From the IMG/VR virus record IMGVR_UViG_3300025769_000517, positions 1 to 31,081 of that record: 31,081 nucleotides of DNA; one strand, written 5' to 3'. Shown here in pieces: positions 1 to 31,081 of this stretch; position 1 is the stretch's first letter, and each line of letters begins with the position of its first letter. Under the pieces are notes generated by a model. It ran no database searches, had not been told where the DNA came from, and was given only the letters and a program-made list of their open reading frames with translations. This DNA is from a virus. Made by a program: the position numbers and the translations under genes.

Positions 1-2
1 CA

Positions 3-41
3 AATTTTACAGCACTTTCAACAAAAGGATTAAATTTATAA
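3..41 (+). CDS. C-terminal end of an upstream tail-fibre-like gene (partial)
   Basis: The third reading frame is open from the window edge to a TAA that shares its last base with the ATG at 41 (TAATG). This overlap style recurs throughout this phage. The visible tail reads NFTALSTKGLNL, which fits the end of a marine phage fibre or adaptor protein. Only 12 residues are visible, and the frame of the next gene is also open to the edge, so the assignment is tentative. Confidence 0.4.
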   Translation, partial: NFTALSTKGLNL

Positions 42-1078
42 TGGCATACACAACAATTAATAAATCTACAGATTATTTTAATACTAAACTTTATACAGGA
101 ACAGGTGCAAATTTATCTATAACAGGAGTTGGTCATCAACCAGATTTTACTTGGATTAAAAATAGAGCAAATACAGATGACCATAATTTATTTGATGTTC
201 TTAGAGGATTTTCTACTGATTCTTTACTACGTTCTAATACCAGTGGTGCAGCAACAGATACTACTGAGGGAATTAAATCTTTTGATAGTGATGGATTTAG
301 TTTAGGTAATAATGGTTCTTCAAATGGTAATGGTCAAGGAATGGTATCATGGAACTGGAAAGCAAATGGTGCAGGTTCATCAAACACAGATGGAAGCATA
401 ACCTCAACTGTTAGTGCTAATGCTACAAGTGGATTTAGTATTGTGTCTTATACAGGAAATGGCTCTGCTGGTGCAACGATTGGTCATGGATTAGGTTCAG
501 CACCATCAATGATAATAGCTAAAAGAAGAAGTGCAGTCGAAGATTGGGGAATTTATCATCAATCTATGGGTGCAAGTAAATATATAAATTTAAACACAAC
601 TGCAGCAGAACAATCATCTACAAGTAGATGGAATGGAACTGAACCAACTTCTTCTGTTTTTTCAGTAAATACTCATGGCTCAGTAAATGGAAGTGGAGAT
701 ACTTACATAGCCTACTGCTTCGCAGAGAAACAAGGTTATAGCAAGTTTGGTTCTTACGTTGGTAATGAAAGTACAAATGGTTCATATATTTATTTGGGAT
801 TTAAACCCTCATTCGTTCTATTTAAAAAGACAACTGGAAGTGCAGGCGATTGGCAACTTTGGGATAATAAAAGAGACCCTATAAATCCAGTAGAAAAAGC
901 AATGCACCCTAATGCTAATGGTGGGGCATCAACAGACCAAGACATAGATTTTTTAAGTAATGGTTTTAAATTAAGAAGCAATACGTCTCATTTAAATGCA
1001 AGTGGAGTAGTTTTTATATATATGGCATTTGGTCAATCATTAGTAGGTTCAAACAATGTACCATGTACAGCGAGGTAA
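41..1078 (+). CDS. Tail fibre / receptor-binding type protein (DUF7483-like)
   Basis: 345 aa, rich in G, S, T and N with alternating hydrophobic residues, as in beta-rich phage adhesins. The N-terminal block (YTGTGANLSITGVGHQPDFTW, residues about 18-38, followed by IKNR) and a related block further in (SYTGNGSAGATIGHGLGSAP, about 145-165) look like repeats of one domain that I associate with marine phage DUF7483 proteins. It probably lies on the virion surface and contacts the host. An AAAGGATT ribosome site precedes the ATG. Conserved marine phage fibre genes follow directly. The host receptor cannot be read from the sequence, and the family name is from memory. Confidence 0.65.
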   Translation: MAYTTINKSTDYFNTKLYTGTGANLSITGVGHQPDFTWIKNRANTDDHNLFDVLRGFSTDSLLRSNTSGAATDTTEGIKSFDSDGFSLGNNGSSNGNGQGMVSWNWKANGAGSSNTDGSITSTVSANATSGFSIVSYTGNGSAGATIGHGLGSAPSMIIAKRRSAVEDWGIYHQSMGASKYINLNTTAAEQSSTSRWNGTEPTSSVFSVNTHGSVNGSGDTYIAYCFAEKQGYSKFGSYVGNESTNGSYIYLGFKPSFVLFKKTTGSAGDWQLWDNKRDPINPVEKAMHPNANGGASTDQDIDFLSNGFKLRSNTSHLNASGVVFIYMAFGQSLVGSNNVPCTAR

Positions 1079-5200: not shown

Positions 5201-5686
5201 TTATGCAAATTTTTTATTATCTTCTTCAATATAACTATCTGCAACTGGCTCTTTAAAAGTATTTTGATAAGCCATTTCTCGTTCAAGCTTTGGCAGAACA
5301 GGAGCGTAATTATTCTGCAGCCTTTGCTCTTCCTCGATATTAAGATCTATTTCTTTCCACTTCTTGTAGATCATGCCGTGTTTTGTATGGTCTATATCGG
5401 CAAGTAGATCCTCTGGTTTACCAGCAAAAAATTTATTAATATCGTATCCCTCAGTTTTACATAAGAAGAATAGCCTATCAGCTGATATGCCGTTGGCAGC
5501 TTTCTCGTACTTCTGTATCTGTTGGAACGTTAAGTTTTGTTTTTCTGCTATCTTAGATTGAGTCTTAACATTTGGGATCGCTTTCTCAGATCCGTCTCCA
5601 TGTTTAATGATCTTATCTAAGTGTCTTAATGCAAACATAACTTTTGCTATATTTGCTTTCTCAAGTAGTATTGCGCTAATAATCAT
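5201..5686 (-). CDS. HTH (XRE-type) regulator linked to integrase
   Basis: 161 aa from the ATG at 5686, chosen because GGAGGAGCT lies just upstream. An ATG at 5698 would put this ribosome site inside the gene. Residues about 43-80 (TQSKIAEKQNLTFQQIQKYE, then AANGISADRLFFL) are a classic XRE helix-turn-helix with QQIQKYE as recognition helix. The C-terminal part is charged and helical with no known domain. It overlaps the integrase 3' end by 11 nt, so the two are probably translated together. It may control integration or act as a directionality factor. Confidence 0.75.
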   Translation of the reverse strand: MIISAILLEKANIAKVMFALRHLDKIIKHGDGSEKAIPNVKTQSKIAEKQNLTFQQIQKYEKAANGISADRLFFLCKTEGYDINKFFAGKPEDLLADIDHTKHGMIYKKWKEIDLNIEEEQRLQNNYAPVLPKLEREMAYQNTFKEPVADSYIEEDNKKFA

Positions 5687-6872
5687 TAGCTCCTCCATTG
5701 GTTATTAGATTATTTAGTGCAGCGGTTCTTTTGTTTTTATTCAAATCAGATAAAGGCTTTTGATAGAAACCTTTAAATGTTTTCAATTCTTTTTCCCATC
5801 CATATCTTGCAGCGAATGAGGCATCATCCAAGACTCTCTTAGCGTACATAACTGATGCGCTAAACTTTCTAAAAGGAGAGGCTCCCTTGTGCCATTCGAC
5901 TCCAACTCTAGCAGCTGCTTTCTTAACTATACTTGCAGCATATTCTTTTCTGTATGGAAAGACTCTTCTGTATTGTCTAGCAAAAGTCTTAGGATTAATT
6001 TGTATATCCATCCAAGCTTTTAATAACTGATATAATGTTGCAGTTATCTGAACTTGTCTTTTTCTTTTATCTGTCTTTAGATAGTTTGGTCTAAAATTAC
6101 TATCTCCATCTAGTGAATGCTTAACATCGATCACATAGAATCCTTGCTCTTCATCTTGGTAAACATCCTCGTAGCAAACACCAAGAGCTGCGCTTAGCTC
6201 TATTCCAGTTTCTGCTAACATGTGGACCCATGCTTTTTTACCTGGGTGTGTTTCTGAATTAATCATATTAAAGACTTCATTAGATTTAGGCAGCCAGTTA
6301 TCTTTAGGTGCAGCTCTGTTTTCTAATTGTCTAGGATGAAACTCAAATGCTAAGATCTCTTCAATCTCAATGTTCCATTCCTGGTCTTTACAAAAGATCA
6401 AAAAGTTTTTGAAATATCTTAATGCTCTATTAACTACAAGCTTACCTATCTTTTCCTTGGTTCTGATACCATTGGATACCTTACAGCTTGTTAGTAAGCC
6501 ATGCTTGGTGCTTAGAGCGCCATGTTTAAAATCTGATGCCTTGTACTCATCTAAGTACGTTTTGCTAATATACGGCTGGATATGGGACTCTAATATAGAG
6601 ATATATCCATCTTTAGTCTTAGATTCTAGATCTGGCTCAGATCTTATAGATTTAAAGTATTCTTTAAAAGCATAGTCAAAAGTAATTCTATTAGTCTCTA
6701 CTGGTTCCATTTTTATACCCAGCTCATCTAGTGATTTTGTTAAGCAATCCTTTTCAAATTTGATTGCCTCTCTTTTTTTATTGATAGGGAAAGATCCAAC
6801 AGTAAATTCTTTACCACCTACCTTAACGTAAACTTTATACTTATTACCATTCTTAGCTGTTCTTGTTTCCAC
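5676..6872 (-). CDS. int: Tyrosine recombinase / integrase with atypical active site
   Basis: 398 aa: an N-terminal arm-binding-like part (YKVYVKVGGKEFTVGSFP), SAM-like core-binding domain (about 62-165) and C-terminal catalytic domain. The Tyr nucleophile context (KGFYQKP, Y370), box II Arg (SPFR, R335) and beta-hairpin Lys (LKTDKRKRQV, K266) are visible. The box I position normally Arg (TGxR) is Glu (TGIE, E225), and the box II His is Ser (S332). The start is GTG at 6872 with GGAGAAAGGAAAAC before it. Located next to attP, it should integrate the phage into a tRNA-Arg gene. The active-site changes are noted as a finding. Confidence 0.85.
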   Translation of the reverse strand: METRTAKNGNKYKVYVKVGGKEFTVGSFPINKKREAIKFEKDCLTKSLDELGIKMEPVETNRITFDYAFKEYFKSIRSEPDLESKTKDGYISILESHIQPYISKTYLDEYKASDFKHGALSTKHGLLTSCKVSNGIRTKEKIGKLVVNRALRYFKNFLIFCKDQEWNIEIEEILAFEFHPRQLENRAAPKDNWLPKSNEVFNMINSETHPGKKAWVHMLAETGIELSAALGVCYEDVYQDEEQGFYVIDVKHSLDGDSNFRPNYLKTDKRKRQVQITATLYQLLKAWMDIQINPKTFARQYRRVFPYRKEYAASIVKKAAARVGVEWHKGASPFRKFSASVMYAKRVLDDASFAARYGWEKELKTFKGFYQKPLSDLNKNKRTAALNNLITNGGANDY

Positions 6873-7190: not shown

Positions 7191-7564
7191 TAAGCAGCTC
7201 CTTTCTCATATTTAGATTTTAAATGATCGTTAGCGACATGTTGTTTTTCAAAATATTTTTCAAAACCAACATCGGCTACTTGATACCAAACCTCTTTGAA
7301 TCCATTACCTTTTGGATTGTCATAACAAACCACCATAAGATCTCCAACCATTGTAGATCTTTGATCTGTAGTAGGGATCACAGAAAAATTAGATTTATCT
7401 TTTATCCAACTCTCTTCAATATTCTGTGTTCTTGAATATAACTGTTCAAGATTTTCCTCGACAGTTATGTTTTGACTTGGAACATAAGTAGCAACATGAT
7501 CCCAAACTTTGTGATCTATTTCTCCTTTAAATGTTTTGTGTATTAATCTGATTTGTTCAATCAT
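7190..7564 (-). CDS. Hypothetical early protein with RSTxVGD motif
   Basis: 124 aa. It contains LEQLYSRTQNIEESWI, then DQRSTMVGDLMVV and VWYQVADVGFE. I recognise this pattern (tqN..SW..., RSTsVGD, Y.V...GF) from small phage and plasmid proteins of unknown role, often near antirestriction or polyvalent-protein genes. It ends in GAA, and its start is coupled to the gene before it by GGAGGCTGCGTAATG. Confidence 0.65.
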   Translation of the reverse strand: MIEQIRLIHKTFKGEIDHKVWDHVATYVPSQNITVEENLEQLYSRTQNIEESWIKDKSNFSVIPTTDQRSTMVGDLMVVCYDNPKGNGFKEVWYQVADVGFEKYFEKQHVANDHLKSKYEKGAA

Positions 7565-7743
7565 TACGCAGCCTCCTTAATTGTTATCTTAGCTTTATTA
7601 TTGTGTAAAATATTTCTAGCTTGTTTAATTGCTTTTTTATTTGTTCCACAATTTAAATTATGAATTTTAATATAATTTTTTGATTGATCTAATTTAGTAA
7701 AATTATACCAACCATTACTAATATGAATAACTATATTAGCCAT
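7564..7743 (-). CDS. 59-aa hypothetical early protein
   Basis: This open frame (ATG at 7743, TAA at 7564-7566) fills the space between two recognised genes. It is linked to both by the same junction motif, GGAGGCTGC followed by TAATG. The protein (MANIVIHISNGWYNFTKLDQ at the start, KEAA at the end) has aromatic and Asn/Lys-rich alpha-beta composition. No family is recognised. The shared junctions are the main support. Confidence 0.65.
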   Translation of the reverse strand: MANIVIHISNGWYNFTKLDQSKNYIKIHNLNCGTNKKAIKQARNILHNNKAKITIKEAA

Positions 7744-8075
7744 TATGCAGCCTCCATTTCGTAGTATTGTTGACGTTTTAATTGTGCATTGAAAACTTCT
7801 CCCTCAAAATGATGCTGCTTTAATTTCTTAAGATTCTTAAACCAAGCAACCATAACAGACAAATCGTTATTCATTTTGTAAGTAGTAGTTTTTAATTTTA
7901 AATGAATCTTACCAACGTAATCGTAGTTATGAGATCCAGTTAAAAACTTTTTAACAAAAGCATTTAACCATTTACCTTTGTCAGTTTTGATACCAATCTT
8001 TGGTATTTTATATTCGCAATCTTTTTTGTAATTGCTGTAGCCAGTATTAAGATTTTTTTGAAACTTAATTATCAT
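7743..8075 (-). CDS. Hypothetical early protein (110 aa)
   Basis: 110 aa, basic, rich in K, Y and N, with no TM segment and no recognised motif. Read-through features are GIKTDKGKWLNAFVKKFL and MVAWFKNLKKLKQHHFEGEV. It ends in EMEAA, whose codons form the ribosome site of the next gene, and starts by ATGA overlap with the LPD29-like gene. It is probably a host-takeover or anti-defence accessory gene by location only. Confidence 0.6.
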   Translation of the reverse strand: MIIKFQKNLNTGYSNYKKDCEYKIPKIGIKTDKGKWLNAFVKKFLTGSHNYDYVGKIHLKLKTTTYKMNNDLSVMVAWFKNLKKLKQHHFEGEVFNAQLKRQQYYEMEAA

Positions 8076-8593
8076 GCAGCCTCCTGGTTAAGTTTATTTT
8101 CTACTTCAAATAAATATCCATCTTTACCAAATGGAAATTTGAAATTTTCTGAGATCATGGCTTTTAAAGCATGCTGCCAACCATCATTTTTATTACAAAC
8201 TTCTTTAAGTTTATTTACAAACTGATACCAAGATCTAACTTTTTCTCCGTTTACTTTGAAAGTTAAATCGTAATACTTATCTCCTTTAAAAGTTTCCATG
8301 ATGTATTGCGCTCTTTGGTCATCAATGAACAAGTATTTAGTTTGTGCGATGTCATCTCTAACATTGTCATAATTATAAATGTCATTCATGCCATCAAAAG
8401 TACCTGCCTCATGTTTGATAGCGTAGTCTTTTAAAGTTTTAAGAGCATCATCTGTTCCAGTAAGAACTTTGACACTTACTGAATTACCCATAGAAAAGTA
8501 TTGAGATGTTGCTGTGACTTTCATACCAAGATCCTTAGCTTTGTTTTTTAAAAGCTTAGCAACTTGAGCAGCTTGACTTAGTTTCTTAGTCAT
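8072..8593 (-). CDS. LPD29-domain protein (phage/plasmid accessory)
   Basis: 173 aa. The N-terminal part (LSQAAQVAKLLKNKAK; YFSMGNSVSVKVLTGTDDA; AGTFDGMNDIYNY; YLFIDDQR) matches the LPD29 domain pattern known from large polyvalent proteins and from free-standing phage proteins near antirestriction genes. The biochemical role is unknown. The start chosen is ATG 8593 with GGAGGTAAA directly before it. ATG 8635 is in frame and sits 8 nt past a -10 box, so a longer leaderless form is possible. Confidence 0.7.
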   Translation of the reverse strand: MTKKLSQAAQVAKLLKNKAKDLGMKVTATSQYFSMGNSVSVKVLTGTDDALKTLKDYAIKHEAGTFDGMNDIYNYDNVRDDIAQTKYLFIDDQRAQYIMETFKGDKYYDLTFKVNGEKVRSWYQFVNKLKEVCNKNDGWQHALKAMISENFKFPFGKDGYLFEVENKLNQEAA

Positions 8594-8671: not shown

Positions 8672-8772
8672 TGCCATAATCGTAATTAATTGACAATAAG
8701 GCAAAGTAAAAAAGGCGTAGGGGAATCCTCTGCTAAAGCAGCAATTTAAACGTGGTTATAAAAGGCTAGTAA
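8672..8772. other. Noncoding gap upstream of leftward promoter
   Basis: About 100 nt between the promoter above and the stop of the coiled-coil gene. It holds one inverted TTGACAAT copy (8689-8697) and a C/G-containing stretch (GGCGTAGGGGAATCC). No clear terminator was seen, so transcripts from further upstream may read through. Confidence 0.4.
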
Positions 8773-8979
8773 TTACGCTTGTAATTTAACTAGCTGATCT
8801 TGCAGCTGGATCACATCAACAAGTTTTGTGTGAGCCGTTTTTGAGAGAGCTGCTATACCTGGCGGGTAGATCCCGTCATTTTTTTTCTTTAGTCTCAGAA
8901 TTTTTGCGTTCAGAGACTTTCTCTCTTTTTCCTTTTCCTGGATCTTTTGTTCCAGGTGTTGGTAGTGTGTTATCGCCAT
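8773..8979 (-). CDS. Small coiled-coil protein
   Basis: 68 aa, mostly one long charged helix (YQHLEQKIQEKEKERKSLNA, then KILRLKKK) and a second helix (HTKLVDVIQLQDQLVKLQ) separated by GIYPPG. A strong ribosome site, GGAGG, lies 9 nt before the ATG. It overlaps the 3' end of the preceding gene by 104 nt in another frame. Its function is unknown. A dimeric helical hairpin regulator or adaptor would fit. Confidence 0.6.
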   Translation of the reverse strand: MAITHYQHLEQKIQEKEKERKSLNAKILRLKKKNDGIYPPGIAALSKTAHTKLVDVIQLQDQLVKLQA

Positions 8980-9154
8980 CGGTCTTTACCTCCTTTATGC
9001 GATTAAAATCATAGCTGATTGTTTTATCATCTATAATTATTTCAGCAGCGGTACTTGGCACACTTGCTTGGACCGCGCTATTCAGATCTTTAAAATTCTC
9101 ATGAGCAGTAAAGCTTACGGAACCAGACCAGAATTTTTCAAATAGTTTACCCAT
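8876..9154 (-). CDS. Hypothetical early protein with lysine-rich tail
   Basis: 92 aa. Residues 1-58 are an ordinary soluble segment (FEKFWSGSVSFTAHENFKDL; AAEIIIDDKTISYDFNRIKE). The last about 33 residues are low-complexity K, E, G and S and lie entirely over the next gene in another frame. It starts 8 nt before the end of the DUF3310 gene. The tail may be an overprinted extension. No family recognised. Confidence 0.5.
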   Translation of the reverse strand: MGKLFEKFWSGSVSFTAHENFKDLNSAVQASVPSTAAEIIIDDKTISYDFNRIKEVKTDGDNTLPTPGTKDPGKGKREKVSERKNSETKEKK

Positions 9155-9392
9155 TGGGATAATCTCTTTCTTTAATCATTTGTAGGTAGTGAATGGCTTT
9201 ATTGATGTCTTTTATTTTGCCTTTTTTTTTATGTCTGCAGATGTATTTTATAGCGTTTCCCTCTGCAAAAGGCAAATCGTTTTCGTTAATAAATTCTGCT
9301 GGTTGGATCTTCATATTTTTATAATGATCTCCATCGACTTGCTCTTGCAAGCTCTCGTATATTACTGGTTTAAAATCTTGACTCATTGTCAT
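9147..9392 (-). CDS. DUF3310 family protein
   Basis: 81 aa. QVDGDHYKNMKIQPAEFI, then LPFAEGNAIKYICRHKKKGKI and DINKAIHYLQMI match the DUF3310 signature (GDHY at 21-24; EGNxIKYxxRxKxK), a small phage protein of uncertain role often near nucleotide-metabolism or replication genes. The start at 9392 is preferred because it overlaps the previous stop as ATGA. Starting at 9440 would extend 52 nt into the LexA-like gene. Confidence 0.85.
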   Translation of the reverse strand: MTMSQDFKPVIYESLQEQVDGDHYKNMKIQPAEFINENDLPFAEGNAIKYICRHKKKGKIKDINKAIHYLQMIKERDYPNG

Positions 9393-11870: not shown

Positions 11871-12617
11871 TTATGTGTTAATTAATTGGTTAATAAGCAA
11901 AGGATTATACTTAACTTTAACAGGTGTAGCCAAATCCAAATCTTTTGGTGTGATGTTATTTAATACTGGCTGTCTATTTAATGGGTTTATAACTGATAAG
12001 GTAAAATCTGCATTTGATGTTAAAACACCAACAACATCTGAAATATTTTTAAATCTTTTTTTATAATCTTTTGATGGTTCGCAATAACAAAGTTTACTTA
12101 TTGCTAAACTACTAAATTTTTTAATTTTTGGAATATCAAATAACATTATTTCTCCATCAATAAAGGATCCAGGTATATTACTTTGAATAGCTTTTATGTT
12201 TTTATGGTAATATTCATAAGGTATTTGAATTAATTGTTGATCCTCTTTATCTATTTTTTGTACTTTAAAAGATTCAGTAAAATAATATTTTAAAGGCACT
12301 TCTTTTTTAGGTGTATATACTTCCATTGGATGGCAGCCAATAACTTTAGCAATATCTTCTGCTTGATCCCATTTAATATCTCTTGAATTTTTAGCCCAAC
12401 GATTAATTGTTGTAGTATCTTTATGTAATTCTTTTGCTAACTGTCTTTGGTTCCAGCCTTTACGATCTAATAAATCTTTTAGTAATGCCATAGTTTTTTT
12501 ATCGTGATTGTTAGGTATTACTTTTTCATTTTTATAGTCTAGTTTATTATTAGCAGTAGAATCTACTAATATACCCATATCTGATTCTTTCAATTCATAA
12601 ATATTATTTTTTGACAT
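11871..12617 (-). CDS. CI-like phage repressor
   Basis: 248 aa. After a 40-residue leader, residues 43-101 are an XRE-type HTH (LLDRKGWNQRQLAKELHKDT, then TTINRWAKN, ending GCHPMEVY). The C-terminal half (IPGSFIDGEIMLFDIPK; DVVGVLT) resembles the S24/LexA-type beta domain, but the usual G-x-S-M Ser motif and downstream Lys are not recognisable, so RecA-stimulated self-cleavage may be lost. It is divergent from the Cro-like gene, and its start codon lies inside a palindromic operator, implying autoregulation. It maintains lysogeny by inference. Confidence 0.8.
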   Translation of the reverse strand: MSKNNIYELKESDMGILVDSTANNKLDYKNEKVIPNNHDKKTMALLKDLLDRKGWNQRQLAKELHKDTTTINRWAKNSRDIKWDQAEDIAKVIGCHPMEVYTPKKEVPLKYYFTESFKVQKIDKEDQQLIQIPYEYYHKNIKAIQSNIPGSFIDGEIMLFDIPKIKKFSSLAISKLCYCEPSKDYKKRFKNISDVVGVLTSNADFTLSVINPLNRQPVLNNITPKDLDLATPVKVKYNPLLINQLINT

Positions 12618-12770: not shown

Positions 12771-12968
12771 ATGAGCTTAGAACAATTCAGATTAAAAAAA
12801 GGTTTTTCACATAAAGCATTAGCTAAGTTTTTAGGTTTAGCAGGTACATCTCCAGAAAGCACAGTTTGCAGGTGGTGTACTGGAGACAGGATTCCAAGAC
12901 CAAAGTACATGGATCTTATTAAAAATAAAACTAAAGGAGCTGTAAAGCCAGCTAGCTTTTATGCGTAA
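12771..12968 (+). CDS. Cro-like HTH protein
   Basis: 65 aa, almost all one XRE-like HTH. FRLKKGFSHKALAKFLGLAG, then SPESTVCRWCTGDRIPRP reads as helices 1-4, with STVCRWCTG as recognition helix. It is divergent from the CI-like repressor and first in the rightward early operon, the position of Cro. It probably shuts off repressor synthesis at the shared operators. It overlaps the next gene by 8 nt. Confidence 0.75.
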   Translation: MSLEQFRLKKGFSHKALAKFLGLAGTSPESTVCRWCTGDRIPRPKYMDLIKNKTKGAVKPASFYA

Positions 12969-23231: not shown

Positions 23232-25736
23232 ATGGGAAAACAACTTCTATCAGTTCCCAGCTTTACCGCTGGGGAGCTTTCTTCGCGTATGCAAGGAAGA
23301 ACAGATTTTAAGAAATACTTTAGTGGATGTACACGATTAGAAAATTTTGTAGTTCTTCCACATGGTCCCGTCACTAGACGACCAGGCACATATTATGTTT
23401 CTCCTGTAAAAACACAAACTGCTAAAACAAGATTAATACCTTTTGAGTTTTCTACTACTCAAACTTATATTTTAGAATTTGGCAATCAATACATAAGATT
23501 TTATAAAGATGATGGTCAAATAGAATCTTCTGGTTCTCCTTATGAGATTAGCTCTCCATATTTAACTGCAGAATTATTTGATATTAAATTCGCACAATCT
23601 GCAGATGTAATGTATCTAGTTCACAATAACCATTCTGTAAGAAAGTTATCTAGAACAGGTCACACATCTTGGAGCTTAACAGAAGTAGAATTTACTAATG
23701 GACCATATCTAGATGCAAATACTTCAACTACTACAATGGCTCCATCTGCAACTACTGGATCCTCGATTACAATCACTGCCAGCAGCTCTACATTTGTAAG
23801 TACAGACGTAAATAGATTAATTAGTTTTTCTAATGGTCATGCAAAGATTACAGCTTTTGGATCTGCAACTTCTGTCACTGCAGAAGTAAAAGATGATTTT
23901 GATAATACGAATGCTGTAGAAGATTGGAAGTTAGGAGCCTGGAGTACCACTACTGGTTTTCCATCTTGTGTTTCTTTCTTTGAACAAAGATTAGTTTTTG
24001 CATCTACAACTAACAATCCACAAACTTTATACTTCTCTAAATCTGGAGATTACGAAAATTTTACTAGCGGAACAAATGCTGATGATGCCATGATTTATAC
24101 TATTGCATCAAACCAGGTAAACGTTATTGAGGCATTAAAAGCAACAAGAACACTTATTGTTATGACAACAGGTGGAGAATATTCAGTTAGTTCTGGATCT
24201 TCTCAAGATGCAATTACACCTACAAATATTAATATTAGAAAACAATCTAATTACGGAAGTGCAGGAGTAGATGCGCTATCGATTGGTAATGCCACTATCT
24301 TTCTACAAAGAGCGAAAAGAAAGATTCGAGAGCTAGCATATAATTTTGACTCAGATGGTTATCAAGCTCCAGATATGACTATCTTGGCAGAACATATAAC
24401 GGAATCGGGTATTACTCAAATGGATTATCAGCAGGAGCCTTTTTCCATAGTCTGGTGTGTAAGAACCGATGGAGTGCTAGCAGGTCTTACATACAATCGA
24501 TTAGAGCAAGTCACAGCTTGGCATAGACACATATTCGGTGGCAAGTCTGATACAGGTAAAGATATTAAACAACAACAAATAGCTTTTACCGCAAACTCTA
24601 CAAATGTTAGTACAGCTAACAATACAATTACAATATCATCTCATGGCTTAGCTACTGGAGATCCAGTTTATTATAATGCTCCATCAAATGCTATTGGAGG
24701 ATTAAATAATTCTAATTTATATTATGTAATATCTGTTGATGCTAATACTATTAAATTAGCATCTACATCTGGAAATGCTAGTGGAGGAACAGCTATCAGT
24801 TTAACAACAGCTCCAGGATCTGATACTACACAATATATTTATCAAGGAATTAATATTTATACTGATATTATTTTTTCTGCTAATCATGGATTCAAAACTG
24901 GAGATATTGTTTACTACGATAACACAGGAACATCTATTGGTGGTTTAGCTGAAAACACTAAATACTTTGTAGGTAAAGTAGATGATAATCAATTTCAACT
25001 TTATAGAAATGAAGATCTACTTACAGAAGTAAATATGACTTCTGCTCATACATCAGAGCAAACAGATAATATTTTAACTCATGCTCAAGTAGAGAGTGTT
25101 GCAGTTATAGCTGGTGCAGAAGAGGATCAAGTCTGGGTTATAGTTAAGAGATGGATTAATGGTGCAGAAAAAAGATATGTAGAATATTTAACACCTTTTA
25201 ATTTTAATTCAGATCTTACAGCGTTTCATTATTTAGATTCTGGTTTAAATTATAGTGGAGATGCCACAAGCTCATTAAGTGGTTTATCTCACTTAGAGGG
25301 AGAACAAGTTTCTATTATTGGCGAGGGTGCAGCACAAAATGATAAGGTGGTATCTTCGGGAGCTGTTAGCCTGGACAACGCTATAGAAGAGGCAAACATA
25401 GGATTAGGCTATACATCTGATCTACAAACAATGAGATTAGATGAGGGATACCAAGAAACTACACAAACAAAAGTAAAAAGAATTTATGACTTATCTGTTC
25501 GATTTCATGAAACAGTAGGAGCAAGTGTTGGACCAAACGCAGACACTTTAACTGCAATAGATTTCAGAGATAGTTCAGCTAGTATGGATTTACCTGTTCC
25601 ATTATTTACTGGAGATAAACATATAGAATTTGATTCAGATTATGGTACAGAGGGATTAGTATATATAAAACAACCACAGGCGCTGCCAATGACAATCTTG
25701 GGTATATATCCAAGACTAGAAACTGAAAGTGTCTAA
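23232..25736 (+). CDS. Tail tubular protein B (nozzle, gp12-like) with duplicated insert domain
   Basis: 834 aa. The N-terminal PSFTAGELSSRMQGRTDFKK, then RLENFVVLPHGPVTRRPGT and YILEFGNQYIRFYKDDGQI are typical of T7 gp12-like nozzle proteins, and the middle (SVSSGSSQDAITPTNI; ERAKRKIRE-like QRAKRKIREL) supports this. An insertion carries two copies of a beta domain marked by HG-x-xTGD-x-VYY at residues 471 and 552. It forms the tail tip through which DNA passes. It overlaps the next gene. Confidence 0.9.
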   Translation: MGKQLLSVPSFTAGELSSRMQGRTDFKKYFSGCTRLENFVVLPHGPVTRRPGTYYVSPVKTQTAKTRLIPFEFSTTQTYILEFGNQYIRFYKDDGQIESSGSPYEISSPYLTAELFDIKFAQSADVMYLVHNNHSVRKLSRTGHTSWSLTEVEFTNGPYLDANTSTTTMAPSATTGSSITITASSSTFVSTDVNRLISFSNGHAKITAFGSATSVTAEVKDDFDNTNAVEDWKLGAWSTTTGFPSCVSFFEQRLVFASTTNNPQTLYFSKSGDYENFTSGTNADDAMIYTIASNQVNVIEALKATRTLIVMTTGGEYSVSSGSSQDAITPTNINIRKQSNYGSAGVDALSIGNATIFLQRAKRKIRELAYNFDSDGYQAPDMTILAEHITESGITQMDYQQEPFSIVWCVRTDGVLAGLTYNRLEQVTAWHRHIFGGKSDTGKDIKQQQIAFTANSTNVSTANNTITISSHGLATGDPVYYNAPSNAIGGLNNSNLYYVISVDANTIKLASTSGNASGGTAISLTTAPGSDTTQYIYQGINIYTDIIFSANHGFKTGDIVYYDNTGTSIGGLAENTKYFVGKVDDNQFQLYRNEDLLTEVNMTSAHTSEQTDNILTHAQVESVAVIAGAEEDQVWVIVKRWINGAEKRYVEYLTPFNFNSDLTAFHYLDSGLNYSGDATSSLSGLSHLEGEQVSIIGEGAAQNDKVVSSGAVSLDNAIEEANIGLGYTSDLQTMRLDEGYQETTQTKVKRIYDLSVRFHETVGASVGPNADTLTAIDFRDSSASMDLPVPLFTGDKHIEFDSDYGTEGLVYIKQPQALPMTILGIYPRLETESV

Positions 25737-26178
25737 AATAGAAATAGTACCTTTTACTAAAGAGCATGCCAAACAAATCCTAGAGTTAGGCATGAATGAT
25801 GTTGCTCTTGAATTAAAACCAGAACATAGAAAATATGTTGTGGATATTGAAGATGTTGGAATGTCGTTTACTGGTTTACTTAATAACAAACCTATAGCGG
25901 CAGGAGGTATCTGTTATCTCTGGGATGGCGTTGCTGAGGGGTGGGTCTTAGCATCGAGGGATATATTCAAATATCCGATTTTTTGTGCTAAAACAATCAA
26001 ACGAAGAACCGATTTATTAGCAAAAAATAACAAATTAAAAAGAATACAAACTGCCGTCAAAGCAGACTCTGATACAGCTATCAGATTTGCTGAGTGGCTA
26101 GGATTCAAACGAGAGGGATTAATGAAAAATTATGGTCCCGATGGTGCGGATCATTACTTATACGCAAAGGTTTATTAA
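25729..26178 (+). CDS. GNAT-fold internal virion protein (T7 gp13-like)
   Basis: 149 aa from GTG 25729. IEIVPFTKEHAKQILELG, then GGICYLWDGVAEGWVLAS and AIRFAEWLGFKREGLMKNYG, ending in DHYLYAKV follow the GNAT acetyltransferase fold order, like T7 gp13 and relatives. The acetyl-CoA loop (Q/RxxGxG/A) is not clear, so catalysis is doubtful. Located between nozzle and gp14-like genes as in T7-like virions. Confidence 0.7.
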   Translation: MSKIEIVPFTKEHAKQILELGMNDVALELKPEHRKYVVDIEDVGMSFTGLLNNKPIAAGGICYLWDGVAEGWVLASRDIFKYPIFCAKTIKRRTDLLAKNNKLKRIQTAVKADSDTAIRFAEWLGFKREGLMKNYGPDGADHYLYAKVY

Positions 26179-26630
26179 TGTCATTTATTAGTATTTTATC
26201 AGGTGGAAAAGCAGCAAAGAAGTTAGGAGCTTATAATAACGAGATATACAAAAGAGATGCTGCTATTCAAAGACAAGAAAAAGATCAAGCATTTCATTTT
26301 TACGAAACTTTTGAAAAACCTAAATTTGAAAAAACTGCAGAAGAAATAAGAGATCAATTAAAAGTATCTTATCTAAATAGTGGTGTGACTATGGAGGGTA
26401 CTCCTATAATTGCATTTATAGATCAAGATTACGAATTAAAAACTGATGCAGAAATTTTAAAGTTTAATGCAGAGAATGCTAGAGCAAGATCTGAAAACCA
26501 AGCATTGATGTCAGAGGCAAAAGGTATGTTAGCTCAGTGGGAGGGTAAACTTCTTAAAAGACAAAGCTACTATGATGCTGGACAATCTCTACTTAACACT
26601 GGTGCAACTGTATATGGAGCGATGAATTAA
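26178..26630 (+). CDS. Internal virion / ejection protein (gp14-like)
   Basis: 150 aa from ATG 26178, which overlaps the previous stop (TAATG). It starts with a Gly-containing hydrophobic head (SFISILSGGKAAKK) and continues as a long amphipathic helix (YKRDAAIQRQEKDQAF; FNAENARARSENQALM) with a short C-terminal hydrophobic part (LLNTGATVYGAM). This is the shape of T7 gp14-like proteins that enter the outer membrane during ejection. Confidence 0.65.
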   Translation: MSFISILSGGKAAKKLGAYNNEIYKRDAAIQRQEKDQAFHFYETFEKPKFEKTAEEIRDQLKVSYLNSGVTMEGTPIIAFIDQDYELKTDAEILKFNAENARARSENQALMSEAKGMLAQWEGKLLKRQSYYDAGQSLLNTGATVYGAMN

Positions 26631-28342
26631 TGGCTATTAAACTTTATAAATCGCAAGCAACTATAGATACTAAATCAACTAATGTATCTGCTACTCAATT
26701 AGCTGTTTCTCCTAGTTCAGTTTATAGTTCTGCAAAAGCTAGCGCAGGTGCTGCAGATGCTGCTGTTAATCTATTTGCTGTAATTAAAAAAACTAAAGAC
26801 GACAGTAAAGCAACAGCTATCAATAATGATATAGAATCTAAAATGAATAAGATGGCTATCAATTATGATAGATCTAATAATCCAGAAGATCTAACTACAT
26901 TTAATAGCATGATGTCTTTAGTTAAAGACAAAGCAATACTTGGTTCTAATAACTCAGTTAAAAAGAAAGTTAATTCTTGGTTTGCATCTAAGTTATCTAG
27001 TTCTTCTTTAGATTTAGAAAAGAGTATAACTAATAATATTATAGAGGAAAAAATTGCTACAGATAAAATTGAGCTAGAAAAATATCAAGGAATTATTGCA
27101 ACATCTAATAATAGAAAAGAAGTTAATCAAGCTAAGGGATGGATTAATAATTATTTTGCAAATGAAAATAATAAATTATTTTATAAGCCTGCAGATTGGA
27201 TTACTTTACAAGATGAACAAGAAAATAAGATCCAAGAAAATGCAGCTATTATGCTTGCAACAAATGATCCTAACTCTGTAATTGATAATCCTAAGATTAT
27301 TACTGATAACATTAAAGACACAGAAACAGCAGAGTATATTTTAGAAAAAGCTTACGAAAATTCAGCAGCAAATGTTGAGGCTGAAATAAAAGATATGGAA
27401 ATTATTGATGCTAAGAATTTAGAAGATCAAGCAAATAACTTTGCTGAGCTTGCTGTAAGAATAAAAGACTTTCACGAAAACGCTAACAATCAAGATTTTT
27501 CAGATAAGTTAATTACATATTCAGAATTAAAAAGAGCTTATGTTAATAATGATATTGACGAAACTATGTATAGAAAGCTCATTGATTATAGAGCTGGTGT
27601 TATAGCTTTAGATGATGAAAGACTTGTTGCTGATATTAATGAAGAAATAATAAACAGCGACTCTCCTGTAGAATTACAAGCATTATCTAAAAGAGTACAA
27701 GTTAAAGATTCAGATCTTTCTTTTTTAAAATTATCTGCTGAATCTACTGGTAAAGCATTAAAGAAAATTAATCTGCTTAAAAAAGATTCAGAATTATATT
27801 CAGAATACAAAACAACAACATCTATGATGAAAGCAATATTTTTTGCTAGTGATAGTTATGAGTTTGATGTTGGAGAAGATTCAAGAACAGTTAAAGCTGT
27901 TGGCGGACAAGCTATGGAATACTTTGATAACCTAGTAATTAACCAGGGAATGAACGTCACTGATGCGATGTTTAAAACAATTACTAAGTTTAATCCAGGA
28001 GCTGCTCTACCAAACATGACTATCTTTCCTTTACCTGCTTTTTCAGAAGAGAGCGATTGGACCAGCCAAATATTACAACACGGAGGATCTGGTTATTTTA
28101 TAAAATCTAAAGATAAAATGGCTACTCTTTATAAAGATGGAAAATTAAGTCATGACGAATTTATATTTGAAATAGAAAACTTAAATAAAGCAGAAAGACT
28201 TTTCCAAGTTAGACATAAATACGCAATCTCGGTCAGTAAAGCTTATGAAGATGTAAACGATGATAATGTATTATCTTTTGCTGCAGGAGAGGGTGCAAGT
28301 GGTTTATCAACTATAATTAAAAACTTAATGAAGAAAGACTAA
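26630..28342 (+). CDS. Internal virion / ejection protein (gp15-like)
   Basis: 570 aa, mostly helical, rich in N, K, D and S, with SSVYSSAKASAGAADAAVNL near the start and long coiled segments afterwards. No TM or catalytic motif is obvious. It matches T7 gp15 in order and type, between the gp14-like and the large proteins, and would form part of the trans-envelope DNA channel. Sequence similarity to gp15 cannot be claimed by eye. Confidence 0.6.
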   Translation: MAIKLYKSQATIDTKSTNVSATQLAVSPSSVYSSAKASAGAADAAVNLFAVIKKTKDDSKATAINNDIESKMNKMAINYDRSNNPEDLTTFNSMMSLVKDKAILGSNNSVKKKVNSWFASKLSSSSLDLEKSITNNIIEEKIATDKIELEKYQGIIATSNNRKEVNQAKGWINNYFANENNKLFYKPADWITLQDEQENKIQENAAIMLATNDPNSVIDNPKIITDNIKDTETAEYILEKAYENSAANVEAEIKDMEIIDAKNLEDQANNFAELAVRIKDFHENANNQDFSDKLITYSELKRAYVNNDIDETMYRKLIDYRAGVIALDDERLVADINEEIINSDSPVELQALSKRVQVKDSDLSFLKLSAESTGKALKKINLLKKDSELYSEYKTTTSMMKAIFFASDSYEFDVGEDSRTVKAVGGQAMEYFDNLVINQGMNVTDAMFKTITKFNPGAALPNMTIFPLPAFSEESDWTSQILQHGGSGYFIKSKDKMATLYKDGKLSHDEFIFEIENLNKAERLFQVRHKYAISVSKAYEDVNDDNVLSFAAGEGASGLSTIIKNLMKKD

Positions 28343-30057
28343 TGGAATTAAATATTACAGAAAATTTAGAGAAGAGCGTATTACTACCTTTATACACACA
28401 AGAGAATGAGCTTAACTCAGATGGTATGAGTGCTGCTGAAAAACTTGGTTTAGATACAGGTAATTTTTATTTAGATAGTCAAAACAGAAACGAAAAAAAT
28501 ACACAGATACCATTTTATAATGAAGTAGAAATTAAGGCTAAGAAAAAATCTTTAGAAATGACTAAAGAATTTTTTGTAGATAACTTACCTAGATTTTTTA
28601 AAAATTTACCAGAGGATGCTCTTTACGGAATATTCAAAGGAATTGAAAATGGTGTAAGTGCAACAACAGAATCTTTCCCTGGTATTAAACCATTTGTTGA
28701 TGAAGTAGCAGAAAAGAATATTGCTCCAGAACCTTTTAATTTAACATTAAAACAATTATCAGAAAGAGTACATAATTTAGATCAAGAAAGAGATAAGACG
28801 TTTGCTAATGATTTAGCAGGTTATATGTTCCAAGCAGCTCCATATTTATTCCTTGCAAGATCTAGATTAATACAAGGTGGTATAGGAATAGAAAGAGCTA
28901 ACCTTTTAGCCTGGATGTTTGCATCGGGTATGGGATTCAAAAATGAAGAATTATTAGTTAGTGATGTTTTTGCTAAATCTTTAGGAGATTCTAAGTTTAT
29001 GGATTCTCTTAAAAAATTTGACGAAAAAATTGTTGATACTGGAGTGAGTGTTGAGGGAATAGTAAACTTTAGTGCAAGAGCTATGGATGGCTTATTGTTC
29101 GAAAAATTATTTGGTAAAATAAAAGAAGTTTATAAGAATTGGAAAATATCTAAATTACCTCCTAAAGAAAAAGTTAAGTATCTTGGCGATCAAAAAGAAA
29201 TAAAAAAATTATCTGAGGGTATGGTTGAACAACAAAATAAACCATTAAAATTCTTTCCAAATCAAGACGATGTTAATACAGCTACAGCTGTAGTTAAAAA
29301 CATGGATAATCCTAGCGATGCTGTAATAGATCAAATTAAAAAAGATCCTAATGTTAAAGAGGTTATAGATAATCAAAAAAAAGGAGAGCTAGGTAGTACA
29401 GCTGAAAAATTTAATAATCCAGAATGGCAAGCTAATAGAAAGTTTAATTTTGACGGAGAAGAAATAACAGGTTTTGAAAATGCTATAAATAAATATTATG
29501 GAAATGGTGCATCTAAAAAAGATAAGATTGTTCATATTATGATTGGCAATCCAGCATCTGGTAAATCTTTAAAAGGAAATGTGATTGCTGAACACTTTGG
29601 TTCAAAAGTTATTGATTCAGATGATTTTAAATTAGCTTTAACAGGTAAAAAAAATACATCAGCTACATCTGCTGTTCATGATGAGGGTAAATTTTTAGCA
29701 GATAAAACTTTACAAATAGCTATGGGTAATGGAGATAATTTAGTGGTTCCTATTATTGGTAAATCTGAGGATAAAGTTATGAACTATGTAAATTTATTTA
29801 ATCAGAATGGCTACACAGTTAAATTGGTATATGCCAAAGCTCCAACAAATAAATCTAGAATGTATAATATTAAAAGAAGTTTAGTCACTGGTCGATTAAT
29901 ACCAGATGAATATTTTAGTCAAGATTTAGACAGCAAAATTAATTTTGTTTATGATGTAGTAAAACCCAAAGTAGATGGTTCTGCTACAATCAAAACAGGA
30001 ACAATAAGAAAGAACGCTATCGTTGAAAAAGAAACTACAGGTAGCGGTATATATTAA
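28342..30057 (+). CDS. Virion-type protein with C-terminal zeta-toxin-like kinase domain
   Basis: 571 aa. Residues 1-380 look like a helical virion/ejection protein. Residues about 394-545 form a P-loop kinase of the zeta-toxin/PNK type: Walker A IGNPASGKS (401-409), VIDSDDF (423-429), AVHDEGKFLADKTLQ, LVVPIIGKS, KLVYAKAP and an Arg-containing lid (NIKRSLVTGRLIP). Zeta toxins phosphorylate UDP-GlcNAc and block wall synthesis, but the substrate here is unknown. It lies between the gp15-like gene and the large ejection gene, so it may be injected with the DNA. It starts by overlap with the previous stop. Confidence 0.8.
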   Translation: MELNITENLEKSVLLPLYTQENELNSDGMSAAEKLGLDTGNFYLDSQNRNEKNTQIPFYNEVEIKAKKKSLEMTKEFFVDNLPRFFKNLPEDALYGIFKGIENGVSATTESFPGIKPFVDEVAEKNIAPEPFNLTLKQLSERVHNLDQERDKTFANDLAGYMFQAAPYLFLARSRLIQGGIGIERANLLAWMFASGMGFKNEELLVSDVFAKSLGDSKFMDSLKKFDEKIVDTGVSVEGIVNFSARAMDGLLFEKLFGKIKEVYKNWKISKLPPKEKVKYLGDQKEIKKLSEGMVEQQNKPLKFFPNQDDVNTATAVVKNMDNPSDAVIDQIKKDPNVKEVIDNQKKGELGSTAEKFNNPEWQANRKFNFDGEEITGFENAINKYYGNGASKKDKIVHIMIGNPASGKSLKGNVIAEHFGSKVIDSDDFKLALTGKKNTSATSAVHDEGKFLADKTLQIAMGNGDNLVVPIIGKSEDKVMNYVNLFNQNGYTVKLVYAKAPTNKSRMYNIKRSLVTGRLIPDEYFSQDLDSKINFVYDVVKPKVDGSATIKTGTIRKNAIVEKETTGSGIY

Positions 30058-30131: not shown

Positions 30132-31081
30132 ATGGCTGGACCAATATTAAAAAAGACGATTATTGAACCTATTGTAGATCTAACTAAACCTGTAGTCTCA
30201 AATATTTTAAAAAAATCTTCTGAGATTATAACTAAGGCAGATGGTAAACCTAAAAAGATAGATGAATCTACTATAGTAAAAGATAAGACAGATTTTTCTG
30301 GAGAGGCTAAAGAGCTTACTGAGGGAGCTAGTCAAGCTGAGGGTGGCAATATTATTGAAAACGACAGCATTTTAAAAAATGATGGATCTACTGCTATTCC
30401 TAAAAAAGTTTTACCAGACAATAGCATTAAACCTACAGACTCAGATGTTAATGTTATATTAGATCTTGCAAAACCAGAATCTACAAGCGTTTATAAAAAT
30501 TCAAAACATTTAGATACATTTAATATTAAGTATATCGATAGCGATCAAAGTATCTATGACATGATTGCAGCTCATGAAAAACTTTATAAAAATAAATTAA
30601 CTACAAAAACAAAAGATAAAGATATTAACGATATAGCTAATTTATTAAGTAAAGATCCAGATAAATTAAGTTTTGACTTCTTAGCTACAAAGCCTGGCGA
30701 AATACCACCACCAGGCAAGATAAGAGCTTTTAGAGATTTTTATATTTATAAAACTGAACAATTAGATCTATTAGCTAAAAAGGCTGTTAATGGTACAGAT
30801 GCTGATAGAGTTTTATTTAAACAAGAAATGGCATTGGTTGCTAATCTTCATCAAAAACTAGCAGCTATAAGATCTGATGCAGGTAGAGCTTTAAGAGAAT
30901 GGCAGCTTACATCTAAATCTACAAGGTTTGATGACACAAGTTTTGCTGAGCTTAACTTATCTAATACTTTAGAAAAATTAGGTGGAGCTGAGGATATAGC
31001 ACAAACTGCTAAGATGTATTTATCTCTTCCTAAAAACAAGAGAGCGCAATTTGTTGATGGTGCTGGATTTGCAAAAAAATT
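30132..31081 (+). CDS. Large ejection/internal virion protein, N-terminal part (runs off window)
   Basis: An open frame from ATG 30132 continues without stop to the window edge (316 complete codons). The first about 130 residues are linker-like (KPKKIDESTIVKDK; AEGGNIIENDSI). The later part (DADRVLFKQEMALVANLHQK, then LAAIRSDAGRALREWQ) resembles the helical signature in very large phage virion proteins that take the place of T7 gp16. The full length and any enzyme domain lie outside the window. No strong ribosome site is next to this ATG. A strong one serves a two-codon frame at 30098. Confidence 0.7.
   Translation, partial: MAGPILKKTIIEPIVDLTKPVVSNILKKSSEIITKADGKPKKIDESTIVKDKTDFSGEAKELTEGASQAEGGNIIENDSILKNDGSTAIPKKVLPDNSIKPTDSDVNVILDLAKPESTSVYKNSKHLDTFNIKYIDSDQSIYDMIAAHEKLYKNKLTTKTKDKDINDIANLLSKDPDKLSFDFLATKPGEIPPPGKIRAFRDFYIYKTEQLDLLAKKAVNGTDADRVLFKQEMALVANLHQKLAAIRSDAGRALREWQLTSKSTRFDDTSFAELNLSNTLEKLGGAEDIAQTAKMYLSLPKNKRAQFVDGAGFAKK

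Follow-up and report, generated by a model that had tools for sequence, protein, structure and literature searches.

Zeta-like kinases in injected phage proteins have already been proposed, as has the targeting of the cell wall by phage zeta domains (Iyer 2017, PMC5512222). For MuF toxins carried by temperate phages, a 2017 study suggested delivery at infection and an effect on lysogeny or competition (PMC5576092). In the zeta toxin itself, D67 acts as the catalytic base, and UDP-GlcNAc is bound through T118 at the beta-phosphate, R120 at the phosphates, T128 at the uracil, and E100 at the ribose; a T-to-V change at the equivalent threonine leaves PezT nontoxic (PMC3062530).

The window, that is, the whole stretch of 31,081 nucleotides that we analyzed, has a G+C content of 0.338, and its portal protein is nearest to those of HTVC010P-type pelagiphages (~60%). 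A temperate phage is suggested because an integrase and repressor-like genes are present (Table 1), and from its genes we judge it to be probably a temperate pelagiphage-like podovirus. No tRNA was found in the window that could serve as an attachment site. The host is probably a SAR11-like marine bacterium. The contig is broken in the gp16-fiber region (window positions 1 to 1078 and 30132 to 31081), and roughly 6 kb may be missing compared to the related contig L007.

Table 1. Coordinates of the features discussed in the text (window numbering)
Feature	Position	Strand	Basis or comment
Integrase and divergent Cro/CI-type regulators	5676-6872, 11871-12617, 12771-12968	-, -, +	
gp13-position GNAT-like protein	25729..26178	+	phrog_4177, 1.7e-31; phrog_308 internal virion protein, 1.1e-11
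gp14-like internal virion protein	26178..26630	+	phrog_418 internal virion protein, 1.2e-4; blastp to HTVC203P gp48, 2.6e-11
gp15-position protein, 570 aa	26630..28342	+	Homologous to HTVC028P gp35, E 1.2e-10
Kinase-protein gene	28342..30057	+	ATG start, 571 aa; helical N-terminal part (1-~352) and C-terminal zeta-type kinase; ORF and translation
N-terminal part	28342..29397	+	Mostly helical by prediction; proposed virion-targeting/ejection part
Zeta/PezT-type kinase domain, residues 353-551	29398..29995	+	Pfam, profile versus PDB, AlphaFold2, Foldseek, VIA-align
Walker A loop GNPASGKS, residues 402-409, with K408	29545..29568	+	Lys invariant in 16/16 domains
IDSDDF motif, residues 424-429	29611..29628	+	D427 at the position of the zeta catalytic base D67; invariant in 16/16
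P470-I-I-G-K474 turn	29750..29764	+	I472 in place of zeta T118, K474 in place of R120
Lid region R506-R518	29857..29895	+	R512 and R518 at the positions of zeta R158 and R171
gp16-like protein, start	30132..31079	+	316 of ~945 aa, window ends inside gene; full copies in L001, L003-L005, L007

An earlier note on this DNA had read a zeta-toxin-like P-loop kinase from motifs in the 571-aa protein, and the fold comparisons bear this out. Pfam Zeta_toxin (PF06414) matched residues 391 to 526 with an E value of 4.7e-11 (43 bits against a cutoff of 22.3), and AAA_33 matched the same residues at 3.3e-9. In PHROGs, an ATPase family matched at 7.7e-9 and polynucleotide kinase more weakly; the kinase matches in NCBIfam were all below threshold, including a weak one to XopAJ (2.8e-4). 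PADLOC gave no match to the kinase protein, and phmmer with the single protein against the PDB gave none at an E value of ≤1. Sixteen sequences of the kinase domain were aligned (A5), and this alignment served as the basis of both an AlphaFold2 model and a profile. The domain model had a mean pLDDT of 84.6 and a pTM of 0.81, and its best Foldseek matches in the PDB were the zeta toxin (1gvn/3q8x, E 4.5e-9) and PezT (2p5t, 3.2e-7). By VIA-align, the best match was zeta 1gvn (Z 17.3, rmsd 3.2, 196 residues, model residues 1 to 219), followed by PezT (Z 16.4). The A5 profile ranked PDB entries in the order zeta 1gvn (1.4e-19), Pnkp1 (3.6e-15), PezT (3.1e-12), AvrRxo1 (2e-7), and T4 Pnk (2.5e-6). 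The C-terminal domain is, on the strength of this predicted structure, a well-supported zeta/PezT-fold kinase.

The domain is slightly longer than had been read from the motifs. Because model residues 1 to 40 (protein residues 353 to 392) align with zeta, PezT, and AvrRxo1, although not with polynucleotide kinases, the zeta-specific N-terminal extension begins near residue 353. The span of 29494 to 30000 given in the earlier note thus holds for the kinase but not for its start, and we place the domain at about 29398 to 29995. All of the motifs quoted there (GNPASGKS, IDSDDF, HDEGKF, and an arginine-bearing lid) are present in the open reading frame, with HDEGKF at residues 446 to 451 and the lid at residues 506 to 518 of the 571-aa protein. 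A helical N-terminal part of 380 residues had also been described; about 350 residues are mostly helical by prediction, but with a pLDDT of about 30 to 45, which is very low confidence. The whole-protein AlphaFold model (7 sequences, pLDDT 46) was used only for helicity and to note that zeta and PezT were still the top matches.

Two rival readings draw on neighboring branches of this fold. In the first, the protein is a counterdefense or repair enzyme that phosphorylates nucleic acid ends or a nucleotide signal in the manner of a polynucleotide kinase, undoing host defense early. The fold is indeed near that of bacterial polynucleotide kinase (Z 15.5) and Pnkp1, and a zeta-like fold is contained in a 1134-aa phage protein named anti-CBASS Acb1 (BFVD A0A6J5LTH6), which hints at a counterdefense setting. 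However, the polynucleotide kinase alignment covers 160 residues and lacks the N-terminal extension, whereas zeta and PezT are matched over 193 to 196 residues with the extension included. The sequence profile also favors zeta, and no partner ligase or phosphatase gene was found among the proteins scanned, so that we regard this reading as rather unlikely. In the second, the protein is a NAD-type or other metabolite kinase after the manner of the AvrRxo1/XopAJ branch, with which the weak XopAJ match and a structural match to AvrRxo1 (Z 14.9 over 202 residues, N-terminal extension included) are consistent. The AvrRxo1 profile match is weaker than that to zeta, and we consider this reading quite unlikely.

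Conservation of the catalytic residues suggests that the domain is a working enzyme. Close relatives of the kinase protein occur in seven IMG/VR contigs (L001 to L007) at 62 to 95% identity, with L006 cut by the contig end. K408, D427, R512, and R518 are invariant in all 16 aligned domains; in the HMMER alignments from which the zeta residue numbers were taken, they correspond to K46, D67, R158, and R171, the last two of which we take to be lid residues. Loss of the Walker lysine in close relatives, named in the earlier note as evidence that would speak against its reading, was not seen. The VHxE motif was one search pattern, so its conservation is partly ascertainment, and we gave it no weight. 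The dN/dS of the kinase domain (Nei-Gojobori) was 0.16 to 0.30, and the N-terminal part and the gp15-like gene gave similar values. Judging from these residues, the kinase active site is complete and the enzyme apparently active. It is very unlikely that the domain is structural or a relic that has no enzymatic role, for which one might cite HTVC203P gp46, a protein at a comparable position that lacks a recognized kinase; the invariance of the four catalytic residues and a dN/dS well below 1 argue against it.

The classic UDP-GlcNAc site, unlike the catalytic core, is not intact. The position of zeta T118 is isoleucine (I472) in 6 of the 6 aligned sequences of the window clade. That of R120 is K474 in the window protein and K, Q, or H across the clade, and that of T128 is Y482 in the window protein and Y, V, or N across the clade. 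The sole contact of the four that is retained is E100, which is D454 in the window protein and D or E in the clade. These substitutions bear on the proposal, made in the earlier note, that the kinase phosphorylates UDP-GlcNAc and halts wall growth. In its full form, an ejected kinase would phosphorylate UDP-GlcNAc at the 3' position, block peptidoglycan synthesis, and arrest or weaken the host as PezT does. The closest solved relatives are UDP-GlcNAc kinases, wall targeting by phage zeta domains has been suggested (PMC5512222), and two proteins from the same gene slot with about 30% domain identity (in contigs L035 and L037) retain T, R, T, and E at the four positions. With three of the four contacts changed in the window clade, and with the T-to-V form of PezT nontoxic (PMC3062530), we consider this reading unlikely. 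Because the core is kept while the pocket appears mostly lost, wall arrest is not favored as the action of the window kinase, nor is UDP-GlcNAc as its substrate.

The position of the gene points to the virion. The kinase protein falls within a T7-type gp13-17 module, and the order gp13-gp14-gp15-like-kinase-gp16-like-fiber is identical in every relative with enough sequence to display it. The stop codon of the 570-aa gp15-position gene overlaps the start of the kinase gene in the sequence TAATG. By tblastn, the gp16-like family matched annotated internal virion protein (D) of HTVC028P, HTVC011P, HTVC025P, Syn5, and others. Neither the 570-aa gp15-like protein, the ~945-aa gp16-like protein, nor the N-terminal part of the kinase protein (a shallow profile) had a profile match to T7 gp15 or gp16; the gp15-like and gp16-like labels therefore rest on position and on marine relatives, and by position the earlier placement of the gene between two such ejection genes was correct. 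The GNAT-like protein upstream (Pfam Acetyltransf_4, below threshold) could itself be an ejected acetyltransferase.

An ordinary prophage toxin-antitoxin module or addiction toxin would suit a phage that looks temperate. However, the neighbors of the kinase gene are virion-module genes, one of which it overlaps, and we rejected this reading, which we regard as extremely unlikely, on gene context. No antitoxin is adjacent, as had been observed before, and no epsilon/PezA-type match was found among the window proteins scanned; the gp15-like and gp16-like genes are the neighbors also in those relatives whose sequence covers them. For an injected enzyme, the lack of an antitoxin is to be expected and does not count as an anomaly.

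In other phages, the same gene slot holds other proteins. In the pelagiphage HTVC028P, the 954-aa gp34 (L040 6944-9808; MW273921) sits between gp35 and gp33, which are homologous to the 570-aa protein of the window clade (E 1.2e-10) and the gp16-like family (hhalign E 4.7e-53), respectively. Residues 9 to 204 of the kinase protein aligned start to start with the gp34 N terminus (hhalign E 1.8e-4, probability 48%; reversed-sequence controls, 0.32 to 0.37), a weak homology that is suggestive but not proof. The C terminus of gp34 differs from the kinase and is a domain in common with the polyvalent protein of contig L034 (hhalign E 3.4e-12). This C-terminal domain has a VVEEMQSDL motif and no Pfam match. 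Relatives of gp34 were found in five more contigs (L043 to L047), with the same gene order where the contig allows. In the podovirus contigs L035 and L037, the same relative position is taken by a 1176-aa protein that contains a zeta domain (Pfam 1.8e-17 in L037). No homology was detected between the N-terminal part of the kinase protein and either the L035/L037 proteins or HTVC203P gp46. A possible peptidoglycan hydrolase at the C terminus of HTVC203P gp47 was seen by eye, had no Pfam match, and is not claimed.

HTVC010P-type pelagiphage records contained no similar kinase protein. These phages have hypervariable regions near internal virion and fiber genes (PMC10504331, PMC6487183), to which we give no weight as evidence on the kinase slot. 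A 504-aa hypothetical protein in the ejection-gene region of HTVC010P (L009 14832-16346) matches Pfam LPD38 (large polyvalent protein associated domain 38; E 9.3e-49), which links pelagiphage ejection genes to polyvalent proteins; the gp16-like protein of the window clade showed no LPD38-type homology to HTVC010P.

We favor, as fairly probable, the reading that the kinase protein belongs to the ejection module, carries a zeta kinase with an intact active site, and is ejected into the host to phosphorylate a small molecule or nucleic acid early in infection. The fold, the catalytic residues, purifying selection, the slot and gene order, and the presence of another domain in the HTVC028P slot are observed; from these we infer packaging, ejection, and activity. 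The protein would be expressed late, alongside the ejection proteins, as the observed gene order and overlap suggest. Its N-terminal helical part would most likely lodge it in the virion's internal core alongside the gp14-, gp15-, and gp16-like proteins, and by analogy with T7-type phages the kinase would enter the host cytoplasm with the DNA. There, given the intact active site, it may phosphorylate a cytoplasmic substrate with ATP within minutes of the start of infection. ATP and sugar nucleotides are found in the cytoplasm, so the kinase would have to enter before it could act and is unlikely to help open the wall for DNA. The outcome, more speculatively, could be an early shift in host metabolism, in defense, or in the balance of lysis and lysogeny. 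We also considered an extension that is possible but somewhat doubtful, in which the gp15-like/gp16-like interval of HTVC028P- and window-related marine podoviruses is an exchangeable cargo slot; the window clade's kinase would have switched from UDP-GlcNAc to another host metabolite or defense signal, with a UDP-GlcNAc-type kinase or a different domain loaded in other lineages.

If the protein is ejected, the kinase would represent a short, single-cargo form of the injected-effector strategy in phages with probable SAR11-like hosts. It would also offer a clean comparison within one slot, both among different domains and between zeta kinases that keep the UDP-GlcNAc pocket and those that lack it. 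Phage action on the host at the very start of infection, in the minutes that precede gene expression, would become directly open to experiment, and a new substrate of a well-known toxin family might come to light.

Zeta domains also occur elsewhere. A 3683-aa phage polyvalent protein (L034 1054-12105) combines a zeta kinase with an ART-PolyVal domain and LPD38, and a MuF protein from a Myxococcales MAG (L026 3832-9036) has two tandem zeta kinase domains and, by eye, repeated ParB-like NGHNR segments. Cyanophage PSS2 has a zeta domain in its minor head protein, and in halovirus HCTV-1 another adjoins a MuF-like gene. In contig L015, a zeta kinase (7521-8585) lies a few genes past a probable capsid gene (by eye), and the next open reading frame (8761-9186) is macro-domain-like by eye. 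The kinase-protein gene lies among virion genes and carries a domain known from the L034 and L026 proteins. Pfam, PHROGs, and NCBIfam recognized only one enzymatic domain in the kinase protein, compared to the at least two disparate ones of a polyvalent protein, and Pfam gave no Phage_Mu_F match.

Taken as a whole, the best explanation, which we hold with reasonable but not high confidence, is that the kinase is akin to the enzymatic cargo of injected phage proteins (T4 Alt, MuF fusions, and polyvalent proteins) and not to a toxin-antitoxin module. With the zeta/PezT toxins (1gvn, 3q8x, 2p5t), it has in common the fold with its N-terminal extension, the Walker lysine, the catalytic aspartate, and the two lid arginines; it differs in the replaced T118, R120, and T128 positions, in having no antitoxin, and in its fusion to a virion-module protein. 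HTVC028P gp34 occupies the same slot with a weakly homologous N terminus but has another C-terminal domain and no zeta kinase. The L035 and L037 proteins stand in the same order (gp14, gp15-like, zeta protein, gp16-like, fiber), but they have an extra domain upstream of zeta (ParB-like by eye), complete UDP-GlcNAc contacts, and an N terminus that is not detectably related. T4 Alt provides the working model of a packaged enzyme that is injected with the DNA (reviewed in PMC5512222), although Alt is an ADP-ribosyltransferase of unrelated fold. The polyvalent and MuF zeta kinases (PMC5512222), such as those of L034 and L026, are alike in placing a zeta kinase inside a predicted injected phage protein, whereas the window protein has a single enzymatic domain, an N-terminal part of its own, and a podoviral gp15/gp16 slot, with neither MuF nor a recognized LPD domain.
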